DNA of 64,000 nucleotides. Source: Patiria pectinifera. Lineage: Eukaryota > Echinodermata > Asteroidea > Valvatida > Asterinidae. The stretch lies in NCBI GenBank assembly GCA_029964075.1, contig CM057135.1:9140863-9204862 (forward strand). Direction: 5' to 3'. The position numbers were made by a program, and so were the translations under genes. Of the stretch, positions 2,998-45,670 are shown in pieces (the first letter of the stretch is position 1; each line of letters opens with the position of its first letter). Under the pieces are notes generated by a model. It worked only from the letters and a program-made list of their open reading frames with translations, made no database searches and was not told the origin of the DNA.

Positions 2998-3011
2998 ACT
3001 TTTCGCTTTGA

Positions 3012-18057: not shown

Positions 18058-19373
18058 TAGTAGTAGGGATAGTGGGGGTACCAGATCAAAATGGAAAATC
18101 TGTGGCAAGCCTGAACACGTCGCTCTCGTTTCTCAAAATCCCCCGAGGCAAATTTAAAAAAAAACCTGATCAAAATCCCCCGATCCCAATTTTTTTAAAA
18201 TCTGATCAAAAATCCCCGATCCCAATTTTAAGAAAATCTGATCAAAATCTCCCGATCCCAATTTTTAGAAATCTCCCGACGGGTACCGGATCAAAATCCC
18301 CCGCGGCAAACGCCAGGTACCAGCCTTTACCCCTCCCCAATGATTCCCCGCCCCTCCCCACCCCTTCCCTCTCCCAATATATCCCCCTCTCAATATCTCA
18401 TTCTCGAAATCAGGCCAGGCTCTTCATTTTTACACAACACAGACTCACAGCGACTGGTGCGCGAGCCTACAGTCACTTATAAATAAATAAACAAACAACG
18501 TTTTTTTAGGTTTACAAATCAAAGTTTGAACTTTTATTAAAAAAAACATGTTACTTTAACAAAACATTGTCATTCAAATTAACTTATTTAAATAGCTTTT
18601 CATACATCCTAATATATACAGTAAAAAGCCACTCCGAGTGGCTTTTTTGTTGTCATTTAAATTAACTTATTTAAATAGCTTTTCATACATCCTAATATAT
18701 ACAGTAAAAAGCCACTCCGAGTGGCTTTTTCGTTGTCATTCAAATTAACTTATTTAAATAGCTTTTCATACATCTTAATATATACAGTGGCTTTTTTGTT
18801 GTCATTCAAATTAGCTCATTTAAATAGCTTTTCATACATCTTAATATATACAGTAAAAAGCCACTCGGAGTGGCATTATGACATCATCGTTATATTAAGA
18901 CGAGAGCCACTCTCAGTGGAATTATGACATCATCGTTATATTTAGTGACTAAGCGTTTTGGCCAATTTTTATATCATAGAGATATATCAAAATGGTACAC
19001 TTTTAAGTTACTTTTTAAGAAATATCTCGAGGTTTTTACTCTTAAAAAATGGTATTAGCGGTACTTGAAAAAATCTTGCTTGTGCGATAAACCCGACGCG
19101 AAGTTATAAAGCAGCCTAACCTCTTTTTCACAGGTTGCGATGGGCGCATGGTCATCATCTGAAACAGAGGAAATATAAGCATTTACACTCAATGTTTGAT
19201 CAGAAACATCACACACACTAATGGGTGGCTAGACTTTTAGTGATTGTGTAGTATTGTTTTTTTTTATAGAGTTTTATCAATATGAAAACTTACATTATTG
19301 CCTTAACTTTTGGTTGGTGACTGCACGTTGAGCGTAGACGTCTGTACCGATCGACATATCATGTTGAAATGAC
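18058..19373. repeat. Left terminal inverted repeat of Polinton 1
   Basis: This is the inverted partner of 46004-47138. The outer part holds several degenerate copies of a CCCCGATCCCAATTTT-type unit (about 18120-18300). A polypyrimidine stretch and CACAGACTCACAGCGACTGG follow, then a tandem block, then about 500 bases matching the right TIR closely up to TCATGTTGAAATGAC at 19373. It is about 180 bases longer than the right TIR because of the tandem block. Confidence 0.9.
18567..18920. repeat. About 80-bp tandem repeat with hairpin inside the left TIR
   Basis: Four copies (one shortened) of a unit start with TTGTCATTCAAATTAACTTA and end in AAAAGCCACTCCGAGTGGC followed by a T run. The palindrome GCCACTCCGAGTGGC can form a stem, with the T run beside it. 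The right TIR lacks these copies and instead repeats a different unit (46430-46570), so the two TIR arms have diverged in this module. Confidence 0.8.
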
Positions 19374-22029: not shown

Positions 22030-23071
22030 TTAACAGAGATTTAAAATTTCCGTCTTCCAAGCATCCATGACTAAAAAGACGTACATCGTGAGGTCACCTT
22101 CAGTTTCGGCTTCTCTGGTAAATTGAATGTTGATGCCTCCTCCGTCTCCGAGTTTTCTACCGGATCCGGGAGCGGAATTGTCGTCGTTACTTCTAAAATC
22201 GAGCCACAGACCGTACTTGTTTTTTAGATAGTCTCGGAGGTCACAACCTGTCATATTTAAGTCTTTAGCTACTCCGCGCCCGCTTTCGGTATCGCTGTCT
22301 CCAAAGAACTTAATAATTTCGTTCCAGTGTTGGTACTGAAACATGCCTTGACTGTAGAGTTGATTGGGTTTACCTTCTACAGTCACCGATGTTTTGGTTA
22401 GTTTTGGATTATAAAATCGCTGCGGATTTTTCTCAGTGGGATCTTTAAACAAAAACAAAATACCCTTGAGACTCCTGATGGGTTGATTGACGCTGACGTT
22501 CCAAAGCGTGTCCGATTTGTTGACGGATCTAACTTCTAGCGAGTGGATTTTATCAAACAGATATTGCATTAACCCCTTGTGTTTATTCCTGATGGTGATA
22601 GCTAGGTCTCTGTTGGTCACCACTTCGTATTCGAGAGACAAGTCTGAGACACTGTACATCGCCGCCGTATCTGAACTGCTGACTACTTTATCGTGATCGT
22701 TAAACTTTATCTCGTACGTCAGAGGTTGTTTTAAACCGCTTGGGTAAAAAGGGTGATGCGAAGTCAGTATGTCAATGTCTAGGGGAATACAATATCTGTT
22801 ACCATAGGCATCCGCGATAGCTTGATCTTTACCGCTGTTGGCGCCCGCGTTAGCATCTTGAGCCCCCCGTTCTTAGTTTAGACACGTTTTCTTTTTCTAT
22901 GCCTGAGTACGCCATGTTTCGAGTCGTCGAGCTGTTGAGCCAATTGTCTTTAAAGTTGTGATACACGTCGGCGTGACGATAACTCACGATTTCGTGACCT
23001 TGAAGCCTGACGCTGATTTCGCTGACTAAATTTCTGGCTAAATTGCTAAAAATGGTTCTATTGTTGTCGCC
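22030..23071 (-). pseudogene. Major capsid protein, 3' part, split by the 17-kb transposon
   Basis: The frame runs from the insertion point to a stop at 22030. It has features of Polinton/adintovirus double jelly-roll capsid proteins: SLEYEVV, QPIRSLKGILFLFKDP, FYNPKLTKTSVTVEG, PNQLYSQGMFQ, then a C-terminal MYVFLVMDAW segment. A frameshift lies near 22865 at a C/G run; upstream of it, NLARNLVSEISVRLQG continues in another frame. The 5' part of the gene lies at 40083-40294, on the far side of the nested transposon, and one copy of the 6-bp duplication fits in frame between the two halves. The protein would form the particle shell. This copy cannot be made. Confidence 0.82.
23066..23071. repeat. 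Target site duplication GTCGCC, left copy
   Basis: GTCGCC immediately precedes the left end of the nested transposon. The identical copy is at 40083-40088. It is part of the capsid coding sequence. Confidence 0.92.
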
Positions 23072-23094
23072 TATGGCACGCCAAAGCGGAATTT

Positions 23095-23605
23095 ATTCAA
23101 CATTTTAAAAATATGTCAACATTTCAAAAACGTATGTCAACATTTTAAAAATATGTCAACATTTCAAAAATATATGTCAACATTTCAAAAACGTGTGTCA
23201 ACATTTTAAAAATATATGTCAACATTTCAAAAATATATGTCAACATTTAAAAAATATATGTCAACATTTCAAAAACGTATGTCAACATTTTAAAAATATA
23301 TGTCAACATTTTAAAAAAATATATGTCAACATTTCAAAAACTTGTCAACATTTAAAAAATATATGCCAACATTTAAAAAAAATATATGTCAACATTTCAA
23401 AAACTTGTCAACATTTAAAAATTATATGCCAACATTTTAAAAAGATCTGTCAACATTTAGAAAAAAAATGTGTCAACATTTTAAAAATATGTCAACATTT
23501 TAAAAATATGTCAACATTTAAAAAAAATATGTCAACATTTTGAAAAATATATGTCAACATTTTAGAAAAATATGTCAACTTTAAAAAAAATAATATTTGT
23601 TCTGA
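23095..23605. repeat. Left subterminal array of the nested transposon
   Basis: About 22 imperfect copies of a 20-27 base unit, TGTCAACATTT followed by A-rich bases and ATATA. A few solitary copies continue to 23770 with GTCAACATTTCG and GCCAACATTCACG. The right array is the same unit in inverse orientation. The plus-strand frame 23193-23543 is a repeat artefact. Arrays like this can serve as transposase binding sites. Confidence 0.9.
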
Positions 23606-23769
23606 TTAATTAACTAGAAATTACATGTCAACATTGCCAAAACTACCTACTACTTGTTGACAAATAAATGCGTCAACCCATCCTGGCCTGCGACAAAGTT
23701 CACCTAAAATACGCGTCAACATTTCGTTCAAAAATATGTGTCAACACTACCCGATGAAAAATATATGCC

Positions 23770-24130
23770 AACATTCACGTGACCGCGCGCGCTACGCGGT
23801 ATACGACGGAGTAGGTGCGCGAAGTATCGACGGAGTACATGTTCATGCGCGAAGTATGCGCTAGCACCCGGCAGGCGCGCAGGCAATGTGCTTTCGTTTT
23901 TCCATGGTGAGAATCAGCGAATAGGCTGGCACCTATGGTGCGGGTAATGAGGCTGTCCTTAATAAGGGAAGTGGGTACTAGGTACCATGCAACCATGTGC
24001 GAGTCGAGCGCGATCATCTGTCACAACACACTGCACTGTCACTAGCACTGACACTGACAGCATTGGACAGTGTTGTCACAATCGTTGTCACAATGTCAGG
24101 ATCTGTTGACGGCAGCCGGCAGAGAACTTC
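23770..24130 (+). promoter_or_regulatory. CpG-rich putative promoter of the element-borne ligase
   Basis: This is the only CpG-dense stretch near the left array: GACCGCGCGCGCTACGCGG, repeated CGCGAAGTAT and CGACGGAGTA words, then CACTGACACTGACAG repeats. It lies 70-430 bases upstream of the first coding exon (24204). There is no TATA box at a fixed distance. The call rests on position and composition only. Confidence 0.4.
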
Positions 24131-24203
24131 TTTTTATTGATTTACGTTAATATACTGTACATAAATTTACTGTACATACATAGCCTAAATATAAGTCAAG
24201 AGC

Positions 24204-27200
24204 ATGATGAACCGTGAAAGGTCAATGCCAACAAACGCCGAGGACTTTGAAGGGCTATTACAACAGCTAAGCAGGTCCAGCTCCACTACTGGAGCCCCGC
24301 AAGAGGTTAGGAACCTAGTGCAACAGATTGTTGCTCACCCCATCGTGGAGCAGTTGAGCCTGAGGCCAGTGCAAGGTACTGTTGTGTAGTTTATATTTGT
24401 TTTCGTCAGATTTTAGTTACGATGATAACCCTACGCCCTTTTTACATCATGTACATGGCTGTGTCGCGTGTCGTTTATCACGACAACGCTCTGGCAGAAC
24501 TAGCTGACTAGAGCCTGTCATGCGTAGATGGTAACGTGGGCCAGACGATAGACATTGAATCATGGAGAATAGAGAGAGACTTTGTTTCCTTCCTCCATGG
24601 TTAGGCATAGACAATAATGATAGACATGGGAACGCCGTGACGAGGTTTATGTGACGAAAACATCACCCTGTCTTGTAAGACACAGATTTGAGAGTGGTTT
24701 TTTAGGTTTTGCTTGAGCTGTAATTCAGTGAGTTTTAAATCTTTTTAGTTTTATTTTCATGTCAGTGGTTGGTGGGATATGATATAGAGCAGTTTCAATA
24801 TCTCAAATGGTGCCTTTAAAAGGCTAGGAAAATACAACATTTGCAAACATCAAAAAATAAAACTACCAAATCATTTTGAAATACCTTGCTGGACTGTTAC
24901 TAGTGAATGACAGTGTAAAGCATCCTGTAAAAATATGGCACCTGGTATACTCTCATTTTCAAGATATTTTTGTATCAATTTCCAACGCTGGTCGGCCGAC
25001 CAGCGTTTGAAAAACTGGCTTTTTTTTCAAATACTGGCCCCCATTGGCCATCGCACTTGTTTGCAATTGATTACACACCTACAAAAGGGGACAAGCCAGC
25101 TAAACTGTTTCCCTGATCTTACAATTCCCAAATGTATGTAAACTGCTCTGTTTCTTCTTAAATGGAGTCAGGGAACCAGACTACAGGAAAATGATTGTTT
25201 TTCTTGGTTTTTATAGCATTTTCGAACCCAAAACCTCAAAAAAGTCAGTGTAACCATATTCGCTATATATTTTCAACCCCCCAATTCCATCCATTTCTGA
25301 AAATTACAGCAAAAGCAAATGATGTACTCCCTTTAATGTATTTTAAATCAGTAGTTTCTGCACACATTTTACCTCAAGAAACTGTATGGGTCTGCTTTTA
25401 ATGTTGTTGTAAAGTTTATATGAAAACACAATTTGCCAAAGCTGTGTCGGCATGTTTTTCTTAGTTCATTATATATGAATACACATGTATTATTTGTTTA
25501 TTTGTTTGTATGAACTTCCTATGTATCACTTTATTTATAACTTTAAACATCTGTGTACCTTTATTTCAGGCTCTGGTGGTGGGGCCACCAGGACCACTAC
25601 AACCACCCTGACCAGCCAGACAATGGCACCCATGAATGTCATGAATGAGGAACTCGCTCGGGTTTTTCGACCAACTGGTGGCTTCAGAAGGAGGAGGAAT
25701 CATGCTGCTGCTGCAGCCAATGCTGCTGCTTCTGCTGGTACAAAGCAACCTGGTGCCACAGGAAAGCCAAAGAAAGGTGGGTAGACAGTGACAGGGGAGT
25801 GAGCAGATTTGAATGCGGGAGTTGGGGGAGGGCTGCTCGAAGCAGGTGTCAGTTGTCACCCAGCATGGCAATACGTAGTGCTAATTGACTTTTTGGGGCA
25901 AATGGAACGATATCATCTGCTCTTTTTTTTGGCGAATACCAGAATGATTGTTTCTAGGTAAAATTTAAAAAAATTGGGGTCGGTTACATTAGTTTTCGAA
26001 CTTATCACCGTCAAACCAGCTTCTATTTAAAAATGTCTATTTGTGTCACTTATCAAAATCTTGCTTGGAGATGTGAAAGATCAATGACAGAGATCAGTTA
26101 GTAGCCTATTAGCTAGCCTACTGGTAGCCGGATGCGGTTGATGGGGAGGTGGTTTAAATTTCTGTATCAGATCCAGGTCGACTTTCTGTAAGCGTTTGTT
26201 CTAGTGAAAACAGCCACCTCATTCCCTTTTTTCAAGTTGCCAGATCAGACCCAGATTGAATGTAAATGGGGTGTTTTGTATGCAAATATGATGACAAATC
26301 CACCAGACAAAGGGTCACTTTAACTTACATGTATAGTGTTGTTCCATTATTTATTTCAGTAAAGACAATCCAGAGGGATGTTGTTCTGCTAGATAGCATG
26401 ATGACTACAAAACCCTGTGATAAGCGGCTGCTGTATAGTGCAGGGAGAGTGGCTAACTGCGTCAAAATTGGATCTGACATGACAGAAATTAACTTCAGGG
26501 ATTTGATCTACTCATTATTCCGTGACAAACTGCTACATATGCCAATGCCAAAGTACGTATATTTCTGTGTGACATCTATATCTGTGTAAAGTAAGGTTAA
26601 TGCAATAAAATCACAAGATTTAGTTCATTGTAGATTGTAAGCTACATTCTCTGGTAGTGTGAACTGTGAGTAACAAGTATAACAACTGATTTTAGGTGAC
26701 TTATTTTTACCAAAAGAACAACCATTCACCCTCATTGATGATCAGTGATTTTTTGTTCATCGTTGGTAATGTAAAAACCTTTGTATCCAGGCTAACTATA
26801 ACGCTTTCTTGGCTTAGAACTGCCCCTTTATGGTTATGTTAGCCCCAAATTCTGGTGAGTTTCCCAAAATCCCCTGAGGCACTTGGAATACCCCAAAATA
26901 GGTAGTTCTGTTTTCAAAAGTGAGCTCCTCAAAATACCCCATCAAACTGTGGGAAAAGTTTCCTTCAACAAAGATTTTAATAATAGTTTCTCTCTAAATT
27001 GTCCTATTTTTTAGATTCCACCTCGTCAAGTGCGAACGAAATTCAATTGTGCAACCCAAATTCGCCGAGGCAACCAAAGTGGATGGTGAAACAGTAATCA
27101 GCATCTGTGGTGCAGGTCAAGTCTACGTCATGGCTACGGGTCAAATTGGTGACCAGTTTGACCCTTCCAGTTACAAAGACAAGGTATTGGGCATCACGCT

Positions 27201-30200
27201 TAGAATCCAATTGTGGTGGATTTGTATTCATAGATGTGGAATTTTATGTGGATATGTTTAGAATTTAGTAAACTGTTGAGAATTGCATTTTTAGAGTGTT
27301 TTAGAGGACACCAAATCGTATGTTGAATGGGAATGGAAATAATTGCCATAAGGCATTCATCAACATTCCTCCATGCAGGTCTATTGATGACAGAATTTAC
27401 TGCCTTTGTGCTGTAATTACATGTTTATGTACCAGTTGACCCCTATCTGCTCAATACATGGGCTGGTTGAAATTATTAACATTGCTCAGAAAAGCCGCAA
27501 TAGCATAAAAATAACAAACTTCCAGTGAAATAGCTCACATGTAGTAAAGTGACACTTGACAGCATGTGTAAGCTATTGCATGATTGTTTTGTTTATATTC
27601 AGGACATTCCTTCAGACGATGACGATAACGAGGATGGCCTGCCTGATATTTTCAGTTCAAGCAGGAGATCACGTGAAGAGGTAAAATGTGGATAGATTCT
27701 TAATTGCATCTATTTAATACTTGTGGGTTTTTTCCCCGTACCAATGTGTGTTGGCACTGTATGCTCAGTGGACAAATAATCCACATAGATTCATGACTGG
27801 CGTCGGATTCGAACCATAACCTCCTGCGGATTGCCGTGAATAATGCAAGATGTGGTTTTGTGCCGCTATCCATGGATTCAAATTGGCCACTCGTCATCGA
27901 CATGCTTGGTGGCTGAGTGGCTAAGGTGTCTGCACTAGAATGCAGGAGGTCGTGGGTTTGAATCTCACCTGAGTCAACACGGATTAGTTTGCCATTAAAA
28001 GGCTCAATGCATTGAACATAGGTACAGTGCTTAAGCACTTCGGGTACGGCAAAAAAAACCAACGATTTTATATTCTCTAAATCCATATCCCAAGACTGTT
28101 TGTTGCAATGACAGCATTTGTTTGTCTGTAATGCTATCTACATGTAGGGTGAACCATTTGGGACTACCCGCACAGACACTGTGATTCAACAGCCAGACAC
28201 ACCGACTGTCAGTTTTCCGCGTCACACTCAGGTAACAAAAATAGGTTATTTCCAATACATTGCATTTCTCTCTCTAACAAGTTCTTACAGTTCATACCTT
28301 TTTCATCATTCATAAATTGTTCTTTGCATTTCACACTATACTTTTTAATAGATAGTATCAGCAGCCCAACATCATAAAAATGTTTACCAGACTTGTCAGC
28401 CCTAACAAAATATATCTTTCCAATGTTTGCATTTGGTTAAAACATGAGGTCAGTAATTGTACATTGTAGTTTGGCTAATGGTCCTCTGAGGTACTTTAGC
28501 AGTTTACAACAGTCGTAGTATTTTGTTTTATCCAGTGGGTGATTAATAAGCGAATGTCTTAACCAACAGCAAATCCTGACAGATAAATTCTTACTGCAAA
28601 AATGTCCAAACCATTTCAGGAACCTCCCTTGAAGTTGGCAAGCAAGAACCCTGCTTCTTATGAGGCTTATCTACAGGTTATGCAGTATGATGATGAAGAT
28701 GATGGCGATATCGCGATCGCAATCGAAAGAAGCCTGCAGGATATTGTTACACCTGAGTATGTTGAATATTTTCATTCACGTTCTTTCACTACAGAAATAC
28801 ATGGACACTCAACAAGTTTTCCCAAATGACCAAAAAGTGCAAGATTTAGCTTTAAAAATATCAGTAAAGTACGAAAGATGCACAGATTTCTACAGTTGAA
28901 ACTGTACATGTACCTCTGTCCTGCAAACAAATTTAAAATGTATCCTAAAGCTGTATTAAAACCAAATCTAAATGATTACATACATGAATTAGGAAGTACT
29001 GTTGAAGTACGACAGACATAGTGACATGAAAGCTTAACTGTAGGAACAAAAATTGAATGAACAATTTCCAAGTAGGCCTATATGTCAACTTGTTACTTTT
29101 TTTGTAACTTTTTACTGTAGCTTCCAGGGTATATGCATTACATGTTGTGCTGATAAGCATTCAATGTACATGCAGCTTGTTACAGAAAGCAAACAAATGC
29201 ACAGTGTTATATCTTACCTTACAATACGAATTGCTGGGATTGATTTTTAAAAGCCTTTCTTTTAAGGATAGGTTTTTAACACATATATTTTCTTCATGAA
29301 TCCAAGTTGAAGATACATTTAAGGCAGCCTACATAGTACTAGTTGTTTTCAAATCAGTAGCAGTTGAGACCAGGTTCTCGGTGTCAAGACCGTGTCAAGA
29401 CTTTGTTTTGGTCTCAGTCTCAATCTCGTTTTCGGTCTCATCCTGCCAAGTCTTGTTCTCGGTCGTCTCGGGCTCTGACAAGCTGGAAAAAACTGGAGCA
29501 TTTATATCCAACATTCTGTTTGATATCCTTTCAGACCTTCTCCTGATGACCTGCTGCAGATTAAGGGTAATCTGTGTAAATATATTCAAGGAGACATCAT
29601 GAACATCATTATACAGAGAAAGCGGATTGGCCGGTCAACATTGAGGGCGATAACATCTGATGAATTTTCCTTTTGGCGGCCCCTTCAGGTGACTTTCTCA
29701 GGGGAGGAAGCTGAGGATGAAGGGGGACCACGCAGAGAATTCTTCAAGTAAATACAACAATCCTTTGTATTCACTAATCCAAATGATACATTTCAGTTTT
29801 GACATTACTTTGAGATTGCAGCTCATTGGCAATTCAGGCTTCCTAACCAAATCAAGAGATTGATTTATACATGGCCATTACATGGCCCTGCAAAACTTGT
29901 GCCTGTCTTAGTGGTCAAACAGTTAAGACATTTCCTCCAGATTGCATGAGGTTTGTAGTCCAGGAGCAAAATCCTGAAAGCCCTCTGGTTTAATAAGTTG
30001 TTTCATGCAACATTTCCTACATCTACAGTTTTCCATCAAAGGATGGTAGAATGCATCCTTTAGAACATTTGAAGGTACTATGAGCATATTCCCAAGAAAT
30101 ATAATAAAAAGGTTACTCAAAACTACTAATGTGTAATAGGTCTGACATCATTGGATGCATAATACACTCTTTAGAACATTCATAGGTACTATGGCGTCTC

Positions 30201-33200
30201 AAATTGTCATATCAGTTTTGTGCTGGTCCGTGGTTCTGGACTATTGTTTTGAGTAAACCTGGTATGCTGTAACTTTGTTACGTTTGGTCATTGAAGAAAA
30301 ATATTAAAATTTAATTCATCTTCAACATGAAAGTTCAAAAAGCCCGCTCTTGCACATTATTTGCTTACACTTTTCAGGCTTTTGATGCGTGAGGTTATGA
30401 CAGGAATGGGAGTTTTCGAAAGTACCACTAAACCGGGAATGGTTACTTTCACGTGCAGCTTGGAACTATTGCGCATGGAAACATACAAGCAAGCAGGGGA
30501 GTACGTATTGTGGAGCATTGCCCAAGGGGGACCTGGCCTAAAAGCACTGTGCCCTTCCACATATTCATCCATGATGGTCAATACTGTGTATCCGGAAGAC
30601 ATTAAGTACCTGTCAGATGAGATAACCAGAAATAACTTGATGGAGGTAAGTTAGAAGTATAGAACATCCTAATTAAACATACAGTATTATTAGTGGTACT
30701 GCTGTTTTTTTAAGGTACTTGTTAGCCTCCATCAGGTGGCTCTGGTAATAATCTCATTCGTGATTTTTTACTTAACACATTTTTGTTTAAAGTAGTAATT
30801 CAAAATAATAATAATACTCGGTTCTTATATAGCGCTGGTATCCATCAAACAAGAGATGATCAGATGATCACACTTACATGGCGCCCTGAGGCAACCATTC
30901 AATGTGGGACCACAGGGACAAACCTCTACTCTTTACGGAGGTGTCTTGGTTCTTAAACAACCGTGCACTGATCTTAGCACACCGGACCTACAGCTTAACG
31001 TCCCATCCAAAGGACATGACCCTAACAATGATGTGCATGGGTCTTTTATATGCCTCTTTTATATACTGATCTCATTCAGCCGCGCAGCCACGAATAATCC
31101 AAAATGATTCTTGTAGTGGTCAGTAGGTGCAGTGGTGGATCCTGCAGGAGCCAGATTGGGCAGGAGCCAGAGTGGGCGTGCCCCCCACCCCTCCCGGCCA
31201 ATGTTATTTTAACATGTACATGTATAACAAACTCATACGCCACATTTTTTTAAAAGGCTTTGTGTACGGTTAAAGTAAAAGGTCACCTAGTGGTCAACAA
31301 TAGTCATTGTCGGTGGCATACATGTATAAACACCCAGCTGATATTTGTGCTTCGTGAAGCACAGTCATCCTGCTCTAAATGATCTTCTGTTTATTCTCCT
31401 GTTAAACAAAAAAAATTGCATTCACTTGATGCACGGACCTCGGAAACACTCACCCATTCCCGCCCCAACTCATCTCTATAAATGTGACACTTTGTTGGGA
31501 TTTTTCCAGTACAGGAATTAATGTAGTCTTTTAGTTTAGTCGAATTGTTGTCATTGGGTAATTTTGCTTTTTCCGCCACCTGAAATGTCTTGATCAAGCT
31601 GAATAATATGTCACTTTTTATTTCCCTCCCATTTACTTTCAGAAAAGTACAATTTTAAATATCTGAACTATCAGAAAGATGCCTACCATTGTCATGTTCA
31701 TCATTTTATTTTACAGTTGCATGCCTGCTCACAGCAGCAGGAGTTTGCCCAAATAGTGACAAAACAGGCCGACTGGCTAATTGAAAGAGGAGTTACCAGA
31801 TTGCACAACCTGCAGTTGGAACAGGATCGCGACATTCTAGTAAAGGATCTGCTCATGCACGAAGTGTACTACAGGTAAACACTGTCCCCACACAGGTTTA
31901 TGTAGGACTACGGGTACAGAAATTACCCCCACAATAGCTTTGGGTCTTTACCCTAGAGATGAAAGTTTCATTCTGCAGTAAGTTAAAGGTACACATCGGC
32001 TTTGACTGTGAGCAACAAGCACTTCATAACAATAGAGTAATACAATTTAAATGGTCTCATATTTTTGGTCTCATTTTAGGTAAGGTTTACTGTATATTTT
32101 TTATTTATTTAACATTTGTGTGCTGGACTGTGTGCTTGTTTGTTTCTCTGGCTATTTGTCAGTTTTGGGCTGTTTTGCAGTCGGTCTGTTTGTGTTTTTG
32201 TTGGCTTTTTGTGAACTTTTCACTGTAAACATTTTGGAAATCAGATAATGTAATACTTATTGTAAATGTTTGTTGTCTCATTTGACGGTTTTATATAAAT
32301 TCTGTTTTAAACATTTTTTTTTTTAACTATTGTTAAGTGCCTAGGAGCATATTTTATGGATCGGTGCAATATAAATGTTTATTATTATTATTGTTATCGT
32401 TATTAAGGCTGTCTTGATTTTTAATTAAAAATGTCATAAATTTATGACATATCATTAAGAAAAAACGTGAATTTGTCAAGGGTTGGCGTATATAATATCA
32501 GTTGCGATATAACCTGCATGCCCTCATGGTGCCTGCAACATGAGCCATCACAAACCCTGCCAATCGCCTGGACACCGTACCAAAAATGCACAGCAAGGAG
32601 CTTTCCGTAGTGTAGTTCCTGGGCATGCCCGATTGTGTTTCTACACACTTGACCCACGCACTAAACATGAGATGTGGATGAATCAAACTTTTTTGAGAGT
32701 CGAATACAGATTCGCAAGTTGCGATTCTGACTGTAACTTTGGAATCGGGTAGATTTAACAAGGTGGATTCGCCCAATGTCGACATTATAAAAATGCTGCC
32801 ATTCAGCAATACGATAAACTGATTCTACCTTTTGTCATTTATGTTTTCATACATTGGTTAAACGGAGTGCAGCCAGCTGCAATGCAATTTCTACAGGGTC
32901 TTGGGCCGTTAAAGGAGATGATAAAGGACAACACAGCTGCAGGTGCAGCTTTGTTGGTATTCGACGAGAAGCCATTGACCATGGGTGACCTGAGGAAGCT
33001 GTACAAAGTGCAATATTCTGAGGAGGGCTCCAACAACCGCACCTTGGAGGAGGACACTGTATACTCCTTCTTAGTCTTTACACAGACTTGTGATGGTAAA
33101 TACATATTTCTACTTAAAAATCACAATTTGATTGATCATCCAAAGCGCATTCCTTGGAACCTCATTGATTTTTGCAAGATGTGTGTTGCATGATGCAATT

Positions 33201-33934
33201 TGCGCAGTTGAATAATGACATAAAGCGCTTTGCCTGATGTGCGATATCACTGTATTGTTTGTGGTTTGAGTCTCTGTGGGAAAAAAATTCCACATTGAGT
33301 CATGTGAGCTTTGAACTCACTACCTCCTGCTTTCTAGTGCAGACATCTTAACCACTCAACCACCGAGCATGTCAATGACGAGTAGCCGGTTGGAATCCCT
33401 GCAAAGCGACAGGTTCTTCAAATCATGCATGATAATTTGCGCTGTGTTTTTCACCATTTTGTCACCATTTGTGGGCTATTTGCAACACCCAAATATACTT
33501 ACCAATTTCCTCAAGTGTGAATTTTATGAAAGCCCATTAGTGCCCAACTCTTTTTTTCCAAACTACTATTATGGATTCGCAATCTAATAATTTGGATTCA
33601 CAATTCGTTATTAAGGATTCACAATCTATTATTATGGATTCGTGATCCATTCTGGATTCATAATCCAGTATTACGACTTCACAATCCGTTAAGTCGGATT
33701 CTCAATCTGTAGCTGTGCACAGTTGTGACACACCAAAAATCACCATTAGAGGGTGTTTGCCCCCTTTTGGTGATTTGTCTTTTCCCCCATATTTATGCAT
33801 TCCTGGACAGTAGGGTAACTATGTCGGAGGCATGTTCAATTACACTCTGGGGGCATCAGACATGCCTTTGGAATCAACATTCCTGTGCACTTGGGACCAA
33901 GACCCTGTGTTCCGAGCTGTTTAGATTTCATTGA
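24204..33934 (+). CDS. Transposon-borne G2E3-like HECT E3 ubiquitin ligase (multi-exon)
   Basis: Exons with GT-AG sites and consistent phase: 24204-24375, 25570-25776, 26360-26552, 27015-27183, 27603-27680, 28148-28231, 28620-28756, 29535-29747, 30378-30645, 31717-31874, about 32850-33095, and probably one from about 33810. Order: Gln/Ser-rich N-terminus; Ala/Arg/Lys-rich exon; a module with VKTIQRDVVLLDS and ICGAGQVYVMATG known from G2E3-like proteins; acidic linkers; a ubiquitin-interacting motif (DIAIAIERSLQD); then HECT, from SGEEAEDEGGPRREFFK through EYVLWSIAQGGPGL and YSEEGSNNR. HECT enzymes pass ubiquitin from E2 through a C-lobe Cys to a substrate. The C-lobe exon and its Cys are not securely placed. 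The acceptor of 32850 is not canonical. The first ten exons join without a frameshift, so the gene looks functional or recent. Confidence 0.8.
24815..25345. repeat. Dispersed repeat, copy 1 (intronic)
   Basis: Shares blocks in the same order with 52706-53092: AATACAACATTTGCAAAC, GCAATTGATTACACACCT, GGGACAAGCC, TAAACTG, GGAACCAGACTACA and AGCAAAAGCAAATG. Coding potential is absent. This copy lies in the first intron of the transposon-borne ligase. Confidence 0.7.
27895..28060 (+). mobile_element. tRNA-derived SINE, copy 2
   Basis: The tRNA-like head GGTGGCTGAGTGGCTAAGG is followed by GTGGGTTTGAATCTCACCTG, giving recognisable A and B boxes. The upstream words TCGTCATCGACATGCTTGG and the tail AATGCATTGAACATAGG recur in the other copies. 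It sits in an intron of the transposon-borne ligase. Confidence 0.6.
30800..31060. repeat. Dispersed repeat with TATATAGCGC motif
   Basis: The stretch CTTATATAGCGCTGG...GATCACACTTACATGG...CCCATCCAAAGGACATG has the look of a widespread animal repeat family (motif ATATAGCGC with a conserved CCATCCAAAGGAC). There is no coding capacity. It lies in an intron of the ligase. Confidence 0.4.
33250..33410 (-). mobile_element. tRNA-derived SINE, copy 3
   Basis: On the minus strand it reads GCTCGGTGGTTGAGTGG, TTAAGATGTCTGCACTAG, then GTAGTGAGTTCAAAGCTCAC, matching the tRNA-like head of the other two copies. TCGTCATTGACATG precedes it, as in copy 2. Confidence 0.6.
33560..33715. repeat. Degenerate GGATTC tandem repeat
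   Basis: About six diverged copies of a 20-30 base unit built on TATTATGGATTCACAATC run between the last ligase exons. Confidence 0.6.
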
Positions 33935-34597
33935 AGAGCGCTATGAACATGTCTTCCAAAATAAAGAATTATTACGTTTTCTAAGGTCAAATCCAGAAGT
34001 GGAAATTGTTTTTACCAAAAGACGATGTTTCATCGTAAGTCAGCCGCATATTTTGTATTTTTTTATCCTAAATTGCCAATGGCTTATTTCAAAGTTTTAA
34101 TAGTTTAGTGTACGGTACGATGATCTGTGTTGATTCTTATTCAAGTTTTAGACAGTAGCATGTATGTCCTGTTCCCCAATGTTTACCATTCATCCGGAGT
34201 GATTTTACCTGGAATTTAAAGATTTCGTTGTGAAATTCCAATCAACATGATTAATGTAGAAGGTACATGACAACATCAGATGTAATTTTTAGCATTTGCC
34301 ATTTCCTACTTACCTTGCCACTATTACTTCAGTGCAAAACATATTGCCATCTCGCCACCTTCTTACCCGTGGCTATTGTCACAATTTTTAAGCCTCCAAT
34401 TTTGCCTCCCTGTGAACTCCACAGGCACATTGTAAAAAAACAAAGTAGCCAAGATGAGCTGAGTTATGTTTATAATATTTATTAAATACATGGTATCATA
34501 TCCAATGCCAAAATTATGTTTGTTTTTGTATTTCTTTTTCATCTGTTACCCTCCATAAAGCATACAGTGTATGTACAAATTTAGCCACATGTTGTAC

Positions 34598-34611
34598 AAT
34601 AAAGTTTTATT
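34598..34611. terminator. Overlapping two-way polyadenylation signal
   Basis: AATAAAGTTTTATT contains AATAAA on the plus strand (34598-34603) and AATAAA on the minus strand (34611-34606), two bases apart. It lies between the end of the plus-strand ligase and the stop of the minus-strand transposase (35057), as expected for a shared bidirectional 3' end of convergent genes. Confidence 0.6.
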
Positions 34612-35056
34612 TAGTAGTCCTGCTGGATATCTGTGATTTTTCCAGCTGTCCTCCCTCTTGCAAAAAATCGCCCCACCTCGGCGGTAACAGAATAACACAC
34701 AATTGTACACAAATTACAATAGTTTTACACACTTTCAATTTTCTGCATAGAGCAACATCTGATTGGGACACTGTGACTTTTCTCATAATTCATCTGGGGG
34801 TCATGCATAAAAACAAAATCCAAGACCAGACCTGTGTACCCCAGAAGGTGACCACATAGGGAGAATATCATGTTATTATATGTCAGTCAAAACCAACCTA
34901 CATGTACATGTAGGAAGGTTTCGTTAAGAGGCGGGGCTTAATGGATTGGTCTATTCAGGACAGGAAAGTTCAAAAGTAGCAAATTTAGACTGGTGTAGGC
35001 TGTGCTACATATATGTACATTAACATTCTTACATTTTGCAAATGGAATGGAGACAC

Positions 35057-38000
35057 CTAATTGCCTAATTTCCGATTAAGGCTTTCAACAGTCGACACGA
35101 ATACATTTGCACCATAGCAGCCATCATCAGCCAGGGGATCAATCTCAGCCTGCAGCTGTAGCAGGTCCTCTTCAGTTAAACCCAACTGAACTTCTGGCAC
35201 TTGGACATCATTGTTTGTCTGAATATCAGGTAGAGGTCCATCATCATCTATGGTGTTCACAAGGTCATTGTGGAATGACACATTGTTCTGGTCCAGCACA
35301 GCCCTCAGGAAAAGCATGTTGGGCGAATTGTTCCTCTCTGTTCGAATTGGGTGGTTGTTCCACTGGTTTTGGAACTCTTGGAGAGCTCTATTGATGCGCG
35401 GAAGAAACACGTAACGCATGGCATAGACATGCACTGGATTGTATCTATCCGCCAAGCCCATCCTTTCAAATTTGTCGAATAGTTCGATGAAGAATGACGT
35501 TACGCTCTCTCTGACATCTTTCCAAAGACGCTCGATTCTCTGGTTATGCACAGACAGACCAGTTATTATACTTCCACGGTTGAGCCCCATCTCCTGCAAC
35601 ATAAAATGTGCAACTGACACATTTTCCATGCCATAGTCGCAACGGACCCGTGATGGGCAGCCATATGCAGCGACTGCACTCGCAAAACACTCCATGACCA
35701 CTGATGCCTTGTTGCAAGTGGAGCAATGAAGGTATACGCACATCCTGGAAAACCCATCGATACCTCCATGGATCACAAAGCCCCATGGGTCGATCAGCTT
35801 GTGATTGCCATCAATATGCCTGTAAAGAAATGATATAAGAATGCACATTTACAGGTTTAGTGTTATCCAACTGCTTCTACATTCCACACTAAGATTGTCG
35901 CTTTCAACATGTTCTTTATGTTGTAAGGATAAGTGAGTGATGTTTTCCAAGTTCATGTTCTATACAATGATGCTGCTTGTAGACATTTTAAAAGTTTTTA
36001 CCATTGATATCAGAAACAATTTGGTGACTGGAAAGGTGAATTCATAAGGTGGCCAACAGGTTGATGACCCCAATAAGAAATTAAACACATAATGCACAAA
36101 ACGAAGACTTTGACTTCATTTTAAACCAAAAATGGCTATCACATTGTGTTCAATAACCCAGTAGCATATCAGCAAAAACATAATGGCTGAGCATTTTATT
36201 CAATGCCAGGTGACTTTAAAGGCTCATGGTAATAGCATGTTTGTATAATAATTACATGTATTGTATCTTGCCATCACTTTCCCCACTTTTATTGCAAATC
36301 GGGAGGTGTTTTAGTACGTTTTGGGCACAAATGTTCTTGAGAATTAACAACAAGAAAACTGCTATAATGCAGAACAAAATGCTTGGAAGATCAGAAAGTT
36401 GGATTGTTAGTATTGTTAGAAAGAAAGATTGAAAGGTAGATGCTTGGAAGATCAGAAAGTTAGATTCTGAGATTTATTCAGATCCATGCCACATGGGCAC
36501 GGCTGACTAGTGAGAAGTATACAATGGAAGCTACATGTACAAAACAGGAAAAACCAACTAACCAGATATAGTTGGGAGCGGGAACATAGTAGCGCCGTCG
36601 GTATATCACACATCTCCGACGCAAAGCTCTCCCAACAGGATCAACTCTTGTAAGACTATCTCTGATGCGTTGTCTTTGTATTCTGTACCCTGAAATGATC
36701 CAAAATAACTGAATTGTACAGGCATTATGGCAAGGGGAGGGAGGTGTTTGGAGGACTATATCTGGTAAGCTGTGACATAATTTTTGTTGTGCTTTTGTGC
36801 TATAATTTTTGTGCCATTTCATGAAATGGACGAGACTGAAAGAGCTTTAAAATAATTTTAAATTCATCTTTGTAGATGCTATTGGAGCTATGATTGTTCA
36901 AAGATAGAGGGTCGTGCTAATTAGTACAAAGTTAGACCAATTAGTACAAAACTTGATCGCTACAGCAAATACCGATGAGCCAAACAACATAACATTCTAT
37001 TTTGGGGGGTTCTCATTTTGGGGGGAGTCCATTCATCATACCAGAATGTGTTTCAATTGGTGAGGGTAAGGTCGAAAATAGTGTTGAATTTACACGGAAT
37101 GACCCACCACAAAGATTAGAAAATACATCAAAATCTTGGAAACTATTGTATTATTTTCCATGTGTGTTTTTTTATGTTTCATTTGACTTCCTTTGCCAAC
37201 AATGTTATTCATATAAAATAATTGTTATTAAAAAATGTATTGTCCAATCACTAGCCTACTTATAAATCTCCAGATGATGAAACAAACAAATGAGTGGGAA
37301 TACACCCTGGCTGATTGTGGCGAGCAGAGTATGACATGGCACCAAATAGAACACAGCAGTTATATTGTAGAACTTTGGCATGAAATATACTTTTATCAAA
37401 TAATACTTTCAGTTTGCCCGTTAAATAAGTAAATGTAATATATTTCACATAACTTTACTTTGTAAGCAAAGCTAACTTGTAATTATTCCTTTTCACGTAG
37501 AAAAGCGCACTGAGCTTTGGCATATTTTAAAAATTACATAATTAATCTTTCAAATATAAACTCAACACAATAAAATATCTAAATGTTTCGCGATGAGTTG
37601 GTCCTCCTTGGGTCCAAGTTAATATTGGTCCGAGTTGGTTTTGGGTCCGACTTGGTCTGGGTCCAAGACGGTTTGGGTCCGAGATGGCTATGAGATCATC
37701 GTAACTATGGACCGGGCGGGATTCGGCCAAATAAAAAAATTTACATGTTTAGCGTCCCTGCCCGCTTCCTTCTTAAAAATAACCATTTCTGAATGGCAGA
37801 TAGGCCTGTACATACAAGCAATGGGGAAAAAGGAACTTTCACAATTTGCATTTCAAAATGTAAAATATCAATGCTCTCACCTCTGGAACGAAGAGCGCCA
37901 ATCATAAGAGTTTCTCCACAGGCTGGGGTCATTTCCATCACAGAACGGACGATCTGGTCCAGTTCATCATCGGTCACATCGAAATATCCTAAACTCAGCT

Positions 38001-38598
38001 CCTGAAATTCCACTGTTTGTCGTCTATTTCTCAATGTCCTTTCATTCATACCAAGAATATTTGAGATTGACCGCCAATTGAAGCCAGCATCTCTTAAAGA
38101 CTTCACAGTATCAACGCTAATACTTAACGGAGGGCGTCCGGGTTGTCGCTGTTCAAGGTTAGGAACAGACCGAGGCATGCAAGTTGGATTCTCAGAAATT
38201 GCAGGGATATTTGTTGGCCTGGCATGAGCAGGATGCATGTAATGGCCAGCTAAGAGCTGACGGATCTGGGTTTCAAACCGTAGTCTTAATGCCAGAACAT
38301 GAGCAAGCACTGCACAAACAAGCGATACAAAGTCCCTTACTTCGTGAGGCCGAGGGGCTTCGTACGCGAGTTCAATTGCACGCGACATCATAACGGAAAC
38401 AGTTTGTGCGTGCTCGTTAACCTGACGAAAATACTGTTCAGCAACGTTTATGTCATTTGTTGTTGTCTGTGGATAAGCTTCAGCCACGAATCGTACCAGT
38501 GCCAGCCAAAAATCAGAAATAAGTCCACCGTCTTCCATTTTATTAAACGCTAAACATGCAAGATTATCCCATTTTTGACGTACCAAGAAGTTGAACAT
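35057..38598 (-). CDS. DDE integrase-type transposase, three exons, 535 aa
   Basis: Exons 38598-37881, 36689-36563 and 35819-35057 join with GT-AG sites into 1608 bases, an uninterrupted frame of 535 codons plus stop. The start at 38598 has the context ACCGCCATG. Order: helical N-terminal domain; GRPPLSISVDTVKSLRDAGF with a helix-turn-helix (WRSISNILGMNERTLRNRR); a YFDVTDDELDQIV segment; RQRIRDSLTRVDPVGRALRR; then an RNase H-fold core. Catalytic candidates are Asp in WHIDGNHKL, Asp in RVRCDYGMENV and Glu in HNQRIERLW, with 34 residues between the last two. It is likely the enzyme that moves the 17-kb element. All key residues are present, so it could be active. The family occurs widely in invertebrates as integrase core domain proteins. 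Confidence 0.88.
37590..37690. repeat. Short degenerate GGTCCGAGTTGG repeat
   Basis: Four to five imperfect copies of a GGGTCCGAGTTGGTTT-type unit, in an intron of the transposase gene. Confidence 0.6.
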
Positions 38599-38734
38599 GG
38601 CGGTATCTCGGTTCCAGTTGTCTCTGCGCAAGTACAATCGTACAAGCAGCTGTAGTCTGGATACCAGACCTGACGTATCTGAATACGGTTGACGAAACGA
38701 AGATTTTTGAGTCAGCCTTAGGGAATTTTTGGAA

Positions 38735-40060
38735 CCAGACTAAAATGTTGACATATATTTTTTAAATGATGACATAAGTTTTTGAAATGTTGACATATAT
38801 TTTTTAAAATGTCGACATATATTTTTTAAATGTTGACATATATTTTTTAAATGTTGACATTAGTTTTTGAAATGTTGACATATATTTTTTGAAATGTTGA
38901 CATATATTTTTTAAATGTTGACATACTTTTTTGAAATGTTGACATATATTTTTTAAATGTTGACATACTTTTTTGAAATGTTGACATATTGTTTACAATG
39001 TTGACATATTTTTTAAAATGTTGACATATTTTTTTCTAAATGTTGACAGATCTTTTGAAAATGTTGACATATATTTTTTAAATGTTAACATAAGTTTTTG
39101 AAATGTTGACATATATTTTTTAAAATGTTGACATATATTTTTTAAAATGTTGACATTTTTGAAATGTTGACATACATTTTTAAAATGTTGACATATATTT
39201 TTGAAATGTTGACATATTTTTAAAATGTTGACATATATTTTTTAAATGTTGACATTAGTTTTTGAAATGTTGACATATATTTTTTGAAATGTTGACATAT
39301 TTTTTAAATGTTGACATACTTTTTTGAAATGTTGACATATTTTTTAAATGTTGACATACTTTTTTGAAATGTTGACATATTGTTTACAATGTTGACATAT
39401 TTTTTAAAATGTTGACATATTTTTTTCTAAATGTTGACAGATCTTTTGAAAATGTTGACATATATTTTTTAAATGTTAACATAAGTTTTTGAAATGTTGA
39501 CATATATTTTTTAAAATGTTGACATATATTTTTTAAATGATGACATAAGTTTTTGAAATGTTGACATATATTTTTTAAAATGTCGACATATATTTTTTAA
39601 ATGTTGACATATATTTTTAAATGTTGACATTAGTTTTTGAAATGTTGACATATATTTTTGAAATGTTGACATATTTTTAAATGTTGACATACTTTTTGAA
39701 ATGTTGACATATTTTTAAATGTTGACATACTTTTTGAAATGTTGACATATTGTTTACAATGTGGACATATTTTTTAAAATGTTGACATATTTTTTTCTAA
39801 ATGTTGACAGATCTTTTGAAAATGTTGACATATATTTTTTAAATGTTAACATAAGTTTTTGAAATGTTGACATATATTTTTTAAAATGTTGACATATATT
39901 TTTTAAAATGTTGACATATATTTTTGAAATGTTGACATACATTTTTAAAATGTTGACATATATTTTTGAAATGTTGACATATTTTTAAAATGTTGACATA
40001 CGTTTTTGAAATGTTGACATATTTTTTACAATGTTGACATATTTTTTAAAATGTTGAATA
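38735..40060. repeat. Right subterminal array of the nested transposon with higher-order repeat
   Basis: More than 50 imperfect copies of TGTTGACATATATTTTTTAAA-type units, the inverse of the left array. Above the unit level, a block of about 370-390 bases that includes the rare variants TATTGTTTACAATG, CTAAATGTTGACAGATC and AATGTTAACATAAG occurs three times (about 38985, 39375 and 39745). The array has therefore grown by duplicating long blocks. It is about 2.6 times the length of the left array. Confidence 0.92.
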
Positions 40061-40082
40061 AATTCCGCTTTGGCGTGCCATA

Positions 40083-40088
40083 GTCGCC
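40083..40088. repeat. Target site duplication GTCGCC, right copy
   Basis: Identical to 23066-23071 and directly adjoining the right transposon end (GTGCCATA). Confidence 0.92.
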
Positions 40089-41771: not shown

Positions 41772-44700
41772 CTAATTAAGATCTAGATTACGGTGACCAT
41801 AAGCGAGCGTGTGTACTCCATCCGGTAAAATGTACCTCTTGGTATCACACGGACTCAACGACAATTTATCTAGCGATATGGTATAAAGGATGTGTTTTTC
41901 CGAACGAATTTGTGTCATCGTTTCTGTTTTAGATTTATTTTTAAAGATGCAGTCGTAGTAGTGTCGGTGTTTTAATTTTTTTGTCAGTGACCGATTTTGT
42001 GACTCCCTTGGCTTTTTTAAGAGTGATGTTGTTGTCATCTGCTAAAATCGAGTACATCTTGGGTCTCACGCAAACGGCTTCTTGAATGACCTTACCTCCA
42101 AATTCGTCTTTAAATTAACCGATCACTTTCTTATTGGTTGGATCGTATAACTCGTGATCCAGATTGTAATTCGAAAAGTCGTAGTGTTGCCCGTGAGATC
42201 GCATGTCTTTGTATATGTCATCCGTATAAACGACAATCAACAGACTGTCCGTATCCGTATACATCAACCTGATTTTATCTTTGTACTTGTCTTTCAATCG
42301 GTCGTACATCAGCGTCTTAGATAGATCTAAGATACTCACTCCGCAATAAATGGGTTTGTTTAACACGGTTTTAGTCTTGTACTTTTCGACAAACGACAGG
42401 TCACATTCTGAAAACGGTATTGTTGTTTTATAGCTCGGTTTTTTTTATGATTTTGGGTGTTTTTTTTTGATCGCCCTCGTTATTGTCTCTCAGTAGGTAA
42501 CCGTCAATTCGATTTCTAACGTTTTCCATCGTCTTACCAAACACGCTGTTATTCATCAGTTTAAAAAAGTCTTTCTCAAAATCAGAGGTTGCTTTTGTTC
42601 GGAGTTGTGTGTTTTTATGGATGTAAGATTTCATCCAAAGCGCTTGTTTAAATTTTAACACGCGATGTACCTTTTTTAGTTTCAAACCGAGATCGAGGTA
42701 TAACTGCAACGTAACGTAGTGCAACACGTATTTTTGTTTTGGATTAAGCGTACACGTTAATTTTTGAACGTTGCTACTAGGTTCGGTATCCAATAACTCG
42801 TTTTGATAATCACACATCCAATCTTGGGGAATGACCATATTTTCGGGTGCTAGGGGATAATCGTTATGCTTAGCGTGTAGATCGTGCTAGCCGGTGTTGG
42901 ACGTTTTCTTAAGCGTTAATATCCTTTCTTCGGTAAACGGTTTCGAGGGTGTCCATTTAAAATCGCTGTACGGTAGATATTGACCCATAGCCCAACCGTA
43001 CAGATTGTTGGCATCCAGATAAGCGATATAACTCGAGGGCTTGTTTGAATCGTAGTCATCGAGATATTGGCTTTGTGATGTCTCATTCCACCCACGCTAG
43101 ATATGCCTCCTCGTTTTGCTTTTTCAAAAAATAAGTGTTTGTCGACGTCTTGTAACAGTTCGAGTTTAGCTTTCGAGTGTTTCAATAGAGCATCCCAGGA
43201 CAATACGGGTGCGGTGTAATATTTGGCTGGATCTAACCCGTAGTTTTCTATGCACGTTCTTCTAAAGTTTTCAAATACGCCTGCAAGTAATAACGTATCG
43301 GTAGTCACGTACAAGTCGTGATATTCTCCTAGATTTTGTATATTAAACTCGTTCCACACGCGTTGAGCTCTGTAGTAGTCTTGTTGCGATATATGCTCGT
43401 CTTTTAGTCTGCTGTAAAACTTGTCGATGGGTGGTAGGCTGGTCTCTTTAAACTTATCAAACGAGTTCATATATTCGAAGGGATACATTCCTTTATGTAA
43501 TAACAAGTCAGTCGCCTCTGGCGTACCTAGTTTCAAATACTTTTTGAGTAGATGAAACGACTCTTTTGGACAAGCTTTCACTAATTTATCCAATGATGAT
43601 GCCATAAAATTAAACGAGTCTAAAAATCGTAGATTTCCTATCGAAAACGAAATATACTTTTCTGAATTTTTAGCGATCACTTGTATTTCCTTTTCGTCAT
43701 CGTATTCTGTCATTCCCTGCATGATCAGGTGAGCGTCGTAATTTTGTAAATTGTGAAAAAAGACCGGTATCGGTGTACAACCGGGTTTAATTTGTAGTTT
43801 GAGGTTACAATAAGCGTGTGCGGCACCCCTATATTTACCAGTGACGTGGCAGTGATCTCTCTCCTTTCTAAATTTATTAATCTTCTTTTTGCAGTCGAGA
43901 CATTGAGACTCGATAAATCCCTTACTATTTTTGTACTGATATTCTTCCATTTGTTTTATCGTCTTGGGTTCTCTGGGTTTCTGGCACTGACAGTTGCTCG
44001 AGTAATTGGGATAAATTGGTTTCTCGCAAATCCAACACGTGTTTGTTTTATCATGATCTTTTTTATCTCGCTCAGTAAATTCAATGGGTTCACAAAGATT
44101 AAATATAGCATTGATGTCTGACTGTAATTCTAACACAGTTTTTACAAACTTCGATGCAGCGTCTTTGCCTCTATAAGTCTTTTGATACACATTTTCACCG
44201 TCGCATCGTACTACAACTAGCGAATAACCGCTAGCTTTGTGAACGTTAATCTTTTTTGTGTTTGTCTCTTTGTCTGAGTGAGTAGGTTTGGATGTTAGTG
44301 TCTGTGTGGGTGTTGTTGTTTGTAATATGGATTCAAAGTCAGCATAAATTACAAATGGTGCTTTTTGTTTGTGGCTATAGTTTTTTCTAATATCGGTACT
44401 TCTCTTTCGTCTGGTTGCCCGTCTATGTATTTTGGTTTACCCGTCGGAAATACAATCTTTGATGGATGTGCATCTATACCCTAACAATCAGCGATATGCC
44501 TGTCTAATTTGTTTTGATTGGTAAAATGCCATAGACATCTTCGACAAAAATATTTCTTACATTTATGTTTCGTAACGTCGTACATCAACCTTGTAAAATA
44601 TTTTATCCAACAATAGTGATGCTTGTCAACTTTAGAAATCAAAAGCAGATCAATCTCTTTTGCCCCGTAGTTTTTAGACACGTATAATGGATATATCTCA

Positions 44701-45670
44701 CCTTCATAACCGTATATGTTTATCGATAAATTATTTTGTCTTTCTATCTTGGGTATCTGATCGACCGGTGTCGGAAAGTCAACGCCTTTAAATTTGAGTC
44801 CGTCGTCTTTGATGTAAATCGACGGCCTGCTTTCGTTGATTTTGTATTGAGGATTATTTCTCATTTGATTTTTTACTGTGTCCGTGTATAACCCCAAGGC
44901 AGATCTCAAACACCATCTCAAACACTCGTCGTCTTTGTTTTGTACGTTTATCATCGCCTGTTTAATTTTAAGATGTTTGGGTAGGTTTATGTAAGAACTG
45001 CCTCTCGCTGGATTATATCTGTTGATGTTGATGTATAACGCGAGTATTGTATCGACTACCCAACCCGATCCTTGATTCGTATACCTTTCATCCTTTTTAG
45101 CTTTCGGCTTGCTATAATGAATAGCTTCGGTCGTTTCGATGATATCGTTCGTTTTGATTTTTCGATACCTTATTTTTAGTACAAGCTCTACTTTTAAACC
45201 TCTGAGCTCTCTAAATTCAGACTTGATTTTATTGACTATTTGTTCCTTGTGCGAATCAAAAAACTTGATTAAATCGTGCTTATTAAGTCTAGGATTTAAT
45301 TCCCAGTTTCTGTAGTAATTTTTAAACCTTCTCGTTTCTCTAAAAGCTGACTCTATAAAAGATGAGGGTTGTCTGTAAGTATTAATCGCAGAGATTAAAT
45401 CTTTTTTTTCAAAAAACGTCCTTTATAACCCGTCGGTACATAATTTATACTATATTTGTCTATAATCTGTTTAAGCTCATCTAGTCTCTTTTGTCTCAAG
45501 TTTTTAAATTGACTTTCATAATTCTTTATCCCATCAATGTAGACTTTACGAGTAAGATAAACACTAGTATTATGTGGTATATTATACCGCTGCACATAAT
45601 CACGCAGCGTGGCTTTGTTCCATCTAGAATATCCTTTTACAGATGTTCTAATCATATTGTTACTCTCCAT
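41772..45670 (-). pseudogene. Protein-primed DNA polymerase B of Polinton 1, multiply frameshifted
   Basis: About 1300 codons in five or more frames. An N-terminal 90-aa module (45670-45395) ends VPTGYKGRFLKK. Next come INVQNKDDECLRWCLRSAL and a zinc finger-like YFCRRCLWHF. Exonuclease I (YADFES) is near 44345 and exonuclease II (FHNLQNYDAHL) near 43755. Motif A (DANNLYGWAMGQ) is near 43010, motif B (MNNSVFGKTMENVRNR) near 42530 and motif C (YTDTDSLL) near 42250. The KKAKGVTK segment is near 42010, and the C-terminus ends TLAYGHRNLDLN at 41772. Such polymerases copy linear element DNA from a protein primer at the TIR. Breaks lie near 44370, 43060, 42880, 42430 and 42115. Confidence 0.92.

Follow-up and report, generated by a model that had tools for sequence, protein, structure and literature searches.

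A 17-kb IS3EU-type transposon of Patiria pectinifera with a HECT-like gene convergent to its transposase

Does a gene resembling a HECT-type E3 ubiquitin ligase, lying next to the transposase of a DNA transposon, belong to that transposon, or was it caught there by chance? The question is raised by a stretch of 64,000 nucleotides from the echinoderm Patiria pectinifera (assembly GCA_029964075.1, contig CM057135.1), which we refer to as the window and which spans C7:9140863-9204862 in a genome of 613.5 Mb and 1020 contigs. Within it, an element of 17,011 bp occupies positions 23072-40082. Our analysis indicates that this element very probably represents an IS3EU-type cut-and-paste lineage whose autonomous members carry two convergent genes, one encoding a DDE transposase and the other a HECT-type E3 ubiquitin ligase. 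This reading is drawn from sequence comparison, and the reasons for it are the repeated convergent pairing of the two genes in diverged families and their joint movement in a sister family, L062.

Ends and genes of the window element

The limits of the element, which begins with TATGG and ends with CCATA, were set by end comparison and an end-motif search. Its terminal inverted repeats (TIRs; 23072-23111 on the plus strand and 40043-40082 on the minus strand) are identical over exactly 40 bp, with a one-base offset beyond, and the flanking sequence reads GTCGCC on both sides (23066-23071 and 40083-40088). These features, together with the convergent arrangement of a HECT-like gene on the plus strand and a transposase gene on the minus strand, bear out the initial annotation, which had described perfect TIRs of about 40 bp, identical GTCGCC flanks and two convergent genes. 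Repeat analysis further identified subterminal tandem arrays of a 21-bp unit, with 24 copies on the left (23090-23592, plus strand) and 64 on the right (38743-40064, minus strand), which continue from both TIRs in opposite orientation and are putative transposase binding sites. Sequences within three mismatches of the 18-bp end occur at two places in the window only, both of them termini of the element (0.01 expected).

The transposase gene (35057-38598, minus strand) comprises three exons (38598-37881, 36689-36563 and 35819-35057) with GT-AG borders and an intact open frame of 535 amino acids. Its product matches the Pfam model rva_4 (PF24764), of the integrase-type DDE transposases, at E=2.7e-74, and the rve model at E=5.7e-6 (27 bits, under the cut-off of 32.6). 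The three candidate catalytic residues, whose presence the initial annotation had noted, lie at D285, D343 and E378; they have the spacing D-x57-D-x34-E and are invariant across an alignment of 28 transposases. A protein search in which 8000 candidates were scored retrieved at least 1614 relatives, the closest among the matches listed being a Lineus longissimus protein with 64% identity over 95%; three scans of viral contigs, with the transposase or the HECT-like protein as query, found no relative. The TA..TA (TAY..RTA) termini, the 6-bp target site duplication and the transposase type fit the IS3EU superfamily, whose TAY/RTA ends and 6-bp duplications the initial annotation had also named.

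The HECT-like gene (24204-31874, plus strand) was delineated from splice borders and from similarity to the protein P0001 and to solved structures. Its ten exons (24204-24375, 25570-25776, 26360-26552, 27015-27183, 27603-27680, 28148-28231, 28620-28756, 29535-29747, 30378-30645 and 31717-31874) have GT-AG borders and compatible phases and together encode 559 residues. A protein search, again with 8000 candidates scored, found 2 proteins; P0001, which is Acanthaster planci LOC110990165, is 46% identical to the HECT-like gene (E=7.8e-88) and itself matches PF00632 at 4.7e-17. Solved HECT structures matched weakly (32 sequences, E=0.002 to 2.1), with AREL1 as the best. Judging by the identity to P0001 and by these weak structural matches, the last exons appear to hold a HECT N-lobe. 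Exon 28620-28756 also contains a UIM-like string, DDEDDGDIAIAIERSL, which was found by a loose ad hoc pattern and is motif-like only. Separately, a short dispersed repeat is present in two inverted copies (82%), one within an intron of the gene (27861-27977) and the other in its 3' part (33295-33411).

Transposase and HECT genes across the genome

Genome searches returned 81 transposase matches, which form 65 loci, and 69 + 92 HECT matches, host HECT genes included, which form 60 loci. We found a HECT locus within 20 kb of 21 of the 65 transposase loci, and in every one of these 21 pairs the nearest HECT gene is convergent with the transposase, as in the window (divergent 0, same direction 0). 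Uniform placement within contigs produced a mean of 1.69 chance pairs (largest 7, largest convergent count 3), and circular shifts produced a mean of 1.63 (largest 7, largest convergent count 5); where the length of a contig was unavailable, its highest observed coordinate was used instead, a choice that favours chance pairs. The pairing persists when transposase loci are taken from the Pfam PF24764 list (a HECT within 20 kb at 19 of 73 loci, all convergent) and when, in addition, Pfam is the sole source of HECT loci (18 of 73, again all convergent). On these counts, the ligase seems to be a regular constituent of such elements and no chance passenger.

The family L062 provides evidence of a different kind. 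At C15:11722000-11729499, a transposase of another clade accompanies a single-exon HECT frame of 698 codons, and the same stretch recurs at C21:3059106, C21:22138009, C864, C17 and C1 with 97-99% identity, each copy starting at L062 base 710 to 713 and the family carrying an inverted copy of the terminal array at its far end. The family ends read TAYGGAAGTGTAGATAGG, with TAYGG at both ends in 7 of 7 copies read. Reading the flanks by eye, we found exact 6-bp duplications at 4 of 6 insertions (TTTTAC at C21:22138009, CATTTC at C864, TTATTC at C17 and TTTTTG at C1), or 5 of 7 when a small copy on C2 (GGTTCG) is counted, and inexact ones at C21:3059106 (GATTTT/CATTTT) and C15 (AAGTTT/GTTTGT). Because the HECT gene lies between the L062 ends at recurrent insertions, it has travelled with the transposase as one unit. 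The open 698-codon frame is kept in 3 of the six insertions; the C864 and C1 copies hold inserts, about 0.7 kb is missing inside the HECT frame of the C17 copy, and at C15 the Pfam transposase match runs across two stop codons, so not every L062 copy is intact in both genes.

In contrast to the window copy, discussed below, the L062 HECT protein is predicted to have both an N-lobe and a C-lobe with a putative catalytic cysteine. Its modelled structure matches HECT domains over about residues 346-696, and cysteine 664 is nearly invariant: among 30 aligned L062-type HECTs, drawn from echinoderm, brachiopod, mollusc, fish and coral entries as well as unattributed ones, at least 90% share a cysteine. 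By sequence, P0001 and 33 relatives of the L062 HECT are of the same HECT subtypes, and they are catalogued mostly as uncharacterised or HECT domain-containing proteins. The model also contains, at about residues 101-200, a confidently predicted alpha/beta domain that precedes a disordered linker (block means mostly >90).

Open HECT frames, of 698 and 792 codons, occur in several sister-family insertions. Among the other sister families, L060 and the C20 element L063 show no terminal pair or end motif in the stretches examined, and L061 has its left end beyond the stretch examined. In its transposase, the window element shares 52% identity with L033 and 34-35% with L060 and L061, whereas in its HECT-like protein it shares 43-44% with L060 and L061 and 33% with L059/L033. 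This mismatch suggests that HECT genes were exchanged between transposase lineages, in a small sample with low branch support: protein trees built on few full pairs have branch supports of 56-73 in both, with 100 for the transposase group of L060, L061 and L062 and 60-67 in the HECT tree.

The ends of the window element recur genome-wide. With up to two mismatches, the 18-bp end is found at 182 + 188 places, against 2 + 5 for a reversed control, and about the first hundred places were itemised. We took from the genome 13 TIR pairs of 0.65-9.2 kb, with each end within one mismatch. These relatives and the window element agree, with few differences, over roughly the outer 30 bp of their TIRs; 8 of the 13 have exact 6-bp duplications, and 11 carry at least 14 copies of the array core GTCAACATTT, the remaining L011 and L012 having one copy each. 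Seven further loci (L022-L028), not included in the 13, have neither a TIR pair nor a transposase or HECT match. With 81 of 126 transposase candidates scored, no second copy of the window element's transposase family was found in the genome, the next best being 64% identical, and the window element is the only copy found in the assembly with both genes of its family. As a side observation, two non-autonomous copies, at C21:34996131-35003276 and C21:35069442-35076258, have exchanged the hexamers that flank them (GAAAGT..CCTGAC against CCTGAC..GAAAGT), the pattern that recombination between two copies would leave.

Possible role of the ligase and competing explanations

If the two genes form one system, the transposase would bind the TIRs and the 21-bp arrays, excise the element and insert it at a 6-bp staggered site, while the ligase would act in trans and be retained because ubiquitination of nuclear proteins benefits the element. 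As to its substrate, we tentatively favour, as the most likely option, host factors that silence or restrict the transposon. A distinctly less probable alternative is that the ligase targets the transposase or the transposase-DNA complex, either limiting copy number or aiding disassembly of the complex after strand transfer. In keeping with regulation of one gene by the other, the pair remains linked and in convergent orientation, and the deubiquitinases of Helitrons have been suggested to act on proteins needed for transposition (PMC9741609). However, in our small sample the HECT types do not follow the transposase types, with HECT branch support of 60-67, and such independent sorting is more in line with a general host target than with a closely matched partner.

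Several observations weigh against a two-gene system. In the window copy, scanning the ten exons directly against Pfam returned neither the HECT nor the UIM model at E<=1. An eleventh coding block (32867-33097, plus strand) is homologous to P0001 and lies in the matching frame, with CGG at the expected acceptor site and no in-frame AG acceptor. Downstream, searches with P0001, P0002, L060 and L061 as queries revealed no C-lobe carrying the catalytic cysteine; the best match (E=0.17) has stop codons within, and C-lobe alignment scores fall below the mean of shuffled queries. Across the genome, no HECT was detected within 20 kb at 44 of 65 transposase loci (or 54 of 73), and the transposase and HECT lists are lower bounds, since the searches score the best candidates only. 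The 21 pairs are not independent and, in our judgement, fall into about ten families, an informal grouping by like scores and distances, and the pairing test covers one genome. In Dendronephthya gigantea, two proteins from equal-sized contigs (2,603,702) offer a cross-species hint that stops short of showing adjacency. Finally, all 13 TIR-paired relatives lack both the transposase and the HECT gene (tblastn at 1e-3).

Taken together with the findings above, these points divide what the initial annotation had claimed. Its ligase with ten in-phase exons stands as regards the exon borders, the phases and the N-lobe similarity, and falls short in completeness; its UIM is reduced to a motif-like string. 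The search for further copies that it had proposed showed that the ends recur, and left the co-occurrence of the ligase undecided, because relatives that contain neither gene are non-autonomous and thus uninformative on the ligase. The two-gene mobile system it envisaged is well supported, by sister families (21 of 65 convergent pairs and the L062 unit) and not by other copies with the window element's ends.

It could be argued that the HECT-like gene is host DNA that IS3EU elements picked up on one or a few occasions and have carried unused. The catalytic lobe apparently missing from the window copy, the movement of non-autonomous relatives without HECT, the transposase loci with no detected HECT and the shortened frame of the C17 copy would all fit this explanation, which we nonetheless regard as improbable: the pairing recurs, always in one orientation, beside transposases 34-64% identical to that of the window, several insertions retain open frames of 698 and 792 codons, and the cysteine is conserved in the aligned L062-type HECTs. 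It is still less probable, to the point of being hardly credible, that the two genes come from two elements nested inside one TIR pair, since the density of transposase matches on the C7 arm and the position of the window element inside a Polinton-like element are set against the lack of a separate inverted-repeat pair around the HECT gene (among the 25 longest of 328) and against the presence of both L062 genes between their own ends at six loci, four with exact duplications.

Within the two-gene reading, the window copy as it stands would yield an N-lobe protein at best and is probably unable to perform the ubiquitin step itself, because no C-lobe was detected. The transposase it encodes could nonetheless be active and serve many non-autonomous relatives, and the copy would rely on intact relatives or manage without a ligase. 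More broadly, we consider it possible, though somewhat doubtful, that animal IS3EU elements are an ancient two-component system with a swappable HECT as an anti-host factor, and that its mobile or domesticated descendants account for most of the many lineage-specific HECT genes found in echinoderms, fish and corals. Independently of that, two-gene elements of this type would give animal HECT gene expansions a concrete candidate origin.

Genomic setting and comparison with known systems

The element is enclosed by inverted copies at about 18058-19373 and 46004-47138, 88.9-90.7% identical. Within the enclosing stretch (18058-47138) lie a frame for an A32-type ATPase (Pfam Pox_A32, 1.1e-9) and one that is integrase-like (rve, 2.2e-4, under its cut-off); frames at 42428-44954 are polymerase-like by eye, with endonuclease VII at 3e-4, under its cut-off, as the only Pfam match. 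We read the element as nested in a Polinton, a name based on this gene set; no target duplication of the Polinton-like element was recognised at the ends read. A second pair of inverted stretches, at 44446-45554 and 61624-62767 (69-75% identical), suggests another Polinton-like fragment at the window's right end.

Outside the element, decayed exons at 5314-7453 (minus strand) are the remains of a second, different HECT-like gene, recognised by DNA match to the HECT side of the IS3EU-like family L059/L033; the match is in pieces, the three longest being 91-94% identical. Some 47 kb upstream (C7:9098279-9099614, plus strand) there is a transposase of this family, again convergent, and the two may be one element split by later insertions. 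Frames at 1642-4613 resemble, by eye, a Gypsy-type retrotransposon (protease, reverse transcriptase and integrase). Of the 81 transposase matches, 35 are on C7, which makes up 7% of the assembly, and 33 of those 35 fall in its first 24 Mb; this transposase-rich arm may consist of old heterochromatin or be a chromosome region of some special kind.

IS3EU elements have TA..TA ends, usually 6-bp duplications and an integrase-like DDE transposase, and belong to the same lineage as GingerRoot (PMC10045372). The window element shares these three traits and differs in its HECT-like second gene, its 17-kb length and its long subterminal arrays; the main text of that paper makes no mention of HECT or ubiquitin. 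In the literature searched, partly as titles and abstracts and with Repbase entries not covered, no paper described a HECT gene on IS3EU or another transposon. A parallel is offered by TET+ IS3EU elements of rust fungi, which share with the window element the end type (TAYGG..CCRTA), TIRs longer than 30 bp, 6-bp duplications and the possession of accessory genes (PMC12730594). There, the accessory genes encode a TET/JBP dioxygenase and an alpha-kinase, transposase and kinase are in opposite orientations, like the two genes of the window element, TET/JBP genes have been exchanged among fungal transposons, and the TET/JBP enzymes are thought to counter silencing (PMC12730594). In the window element, by contrast, the accessory gene identified is of the ubiquitin-ligase type and the host is an animal. 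Helitrons also carry ubiquitin-pathway enzymes, VTD or OTU deubiquitinases, thought to keep needed proteins from degradation (PMC9741609). They differ in removing rather than attaching ubiquitin, in being rolling-circle elements and in having the domain inside the Helitron reading frame. If our reading is correct, ubiquitin ligases would join the accessory genes of eukaryotic DNA transposons, alongside the TET/JBP and alpha-kinase genes of fungal IS3EU and the deubiquitinases of Helitrons, and the sister copies with open frames would be the material for asking what a transposon gains from tagging proteins.

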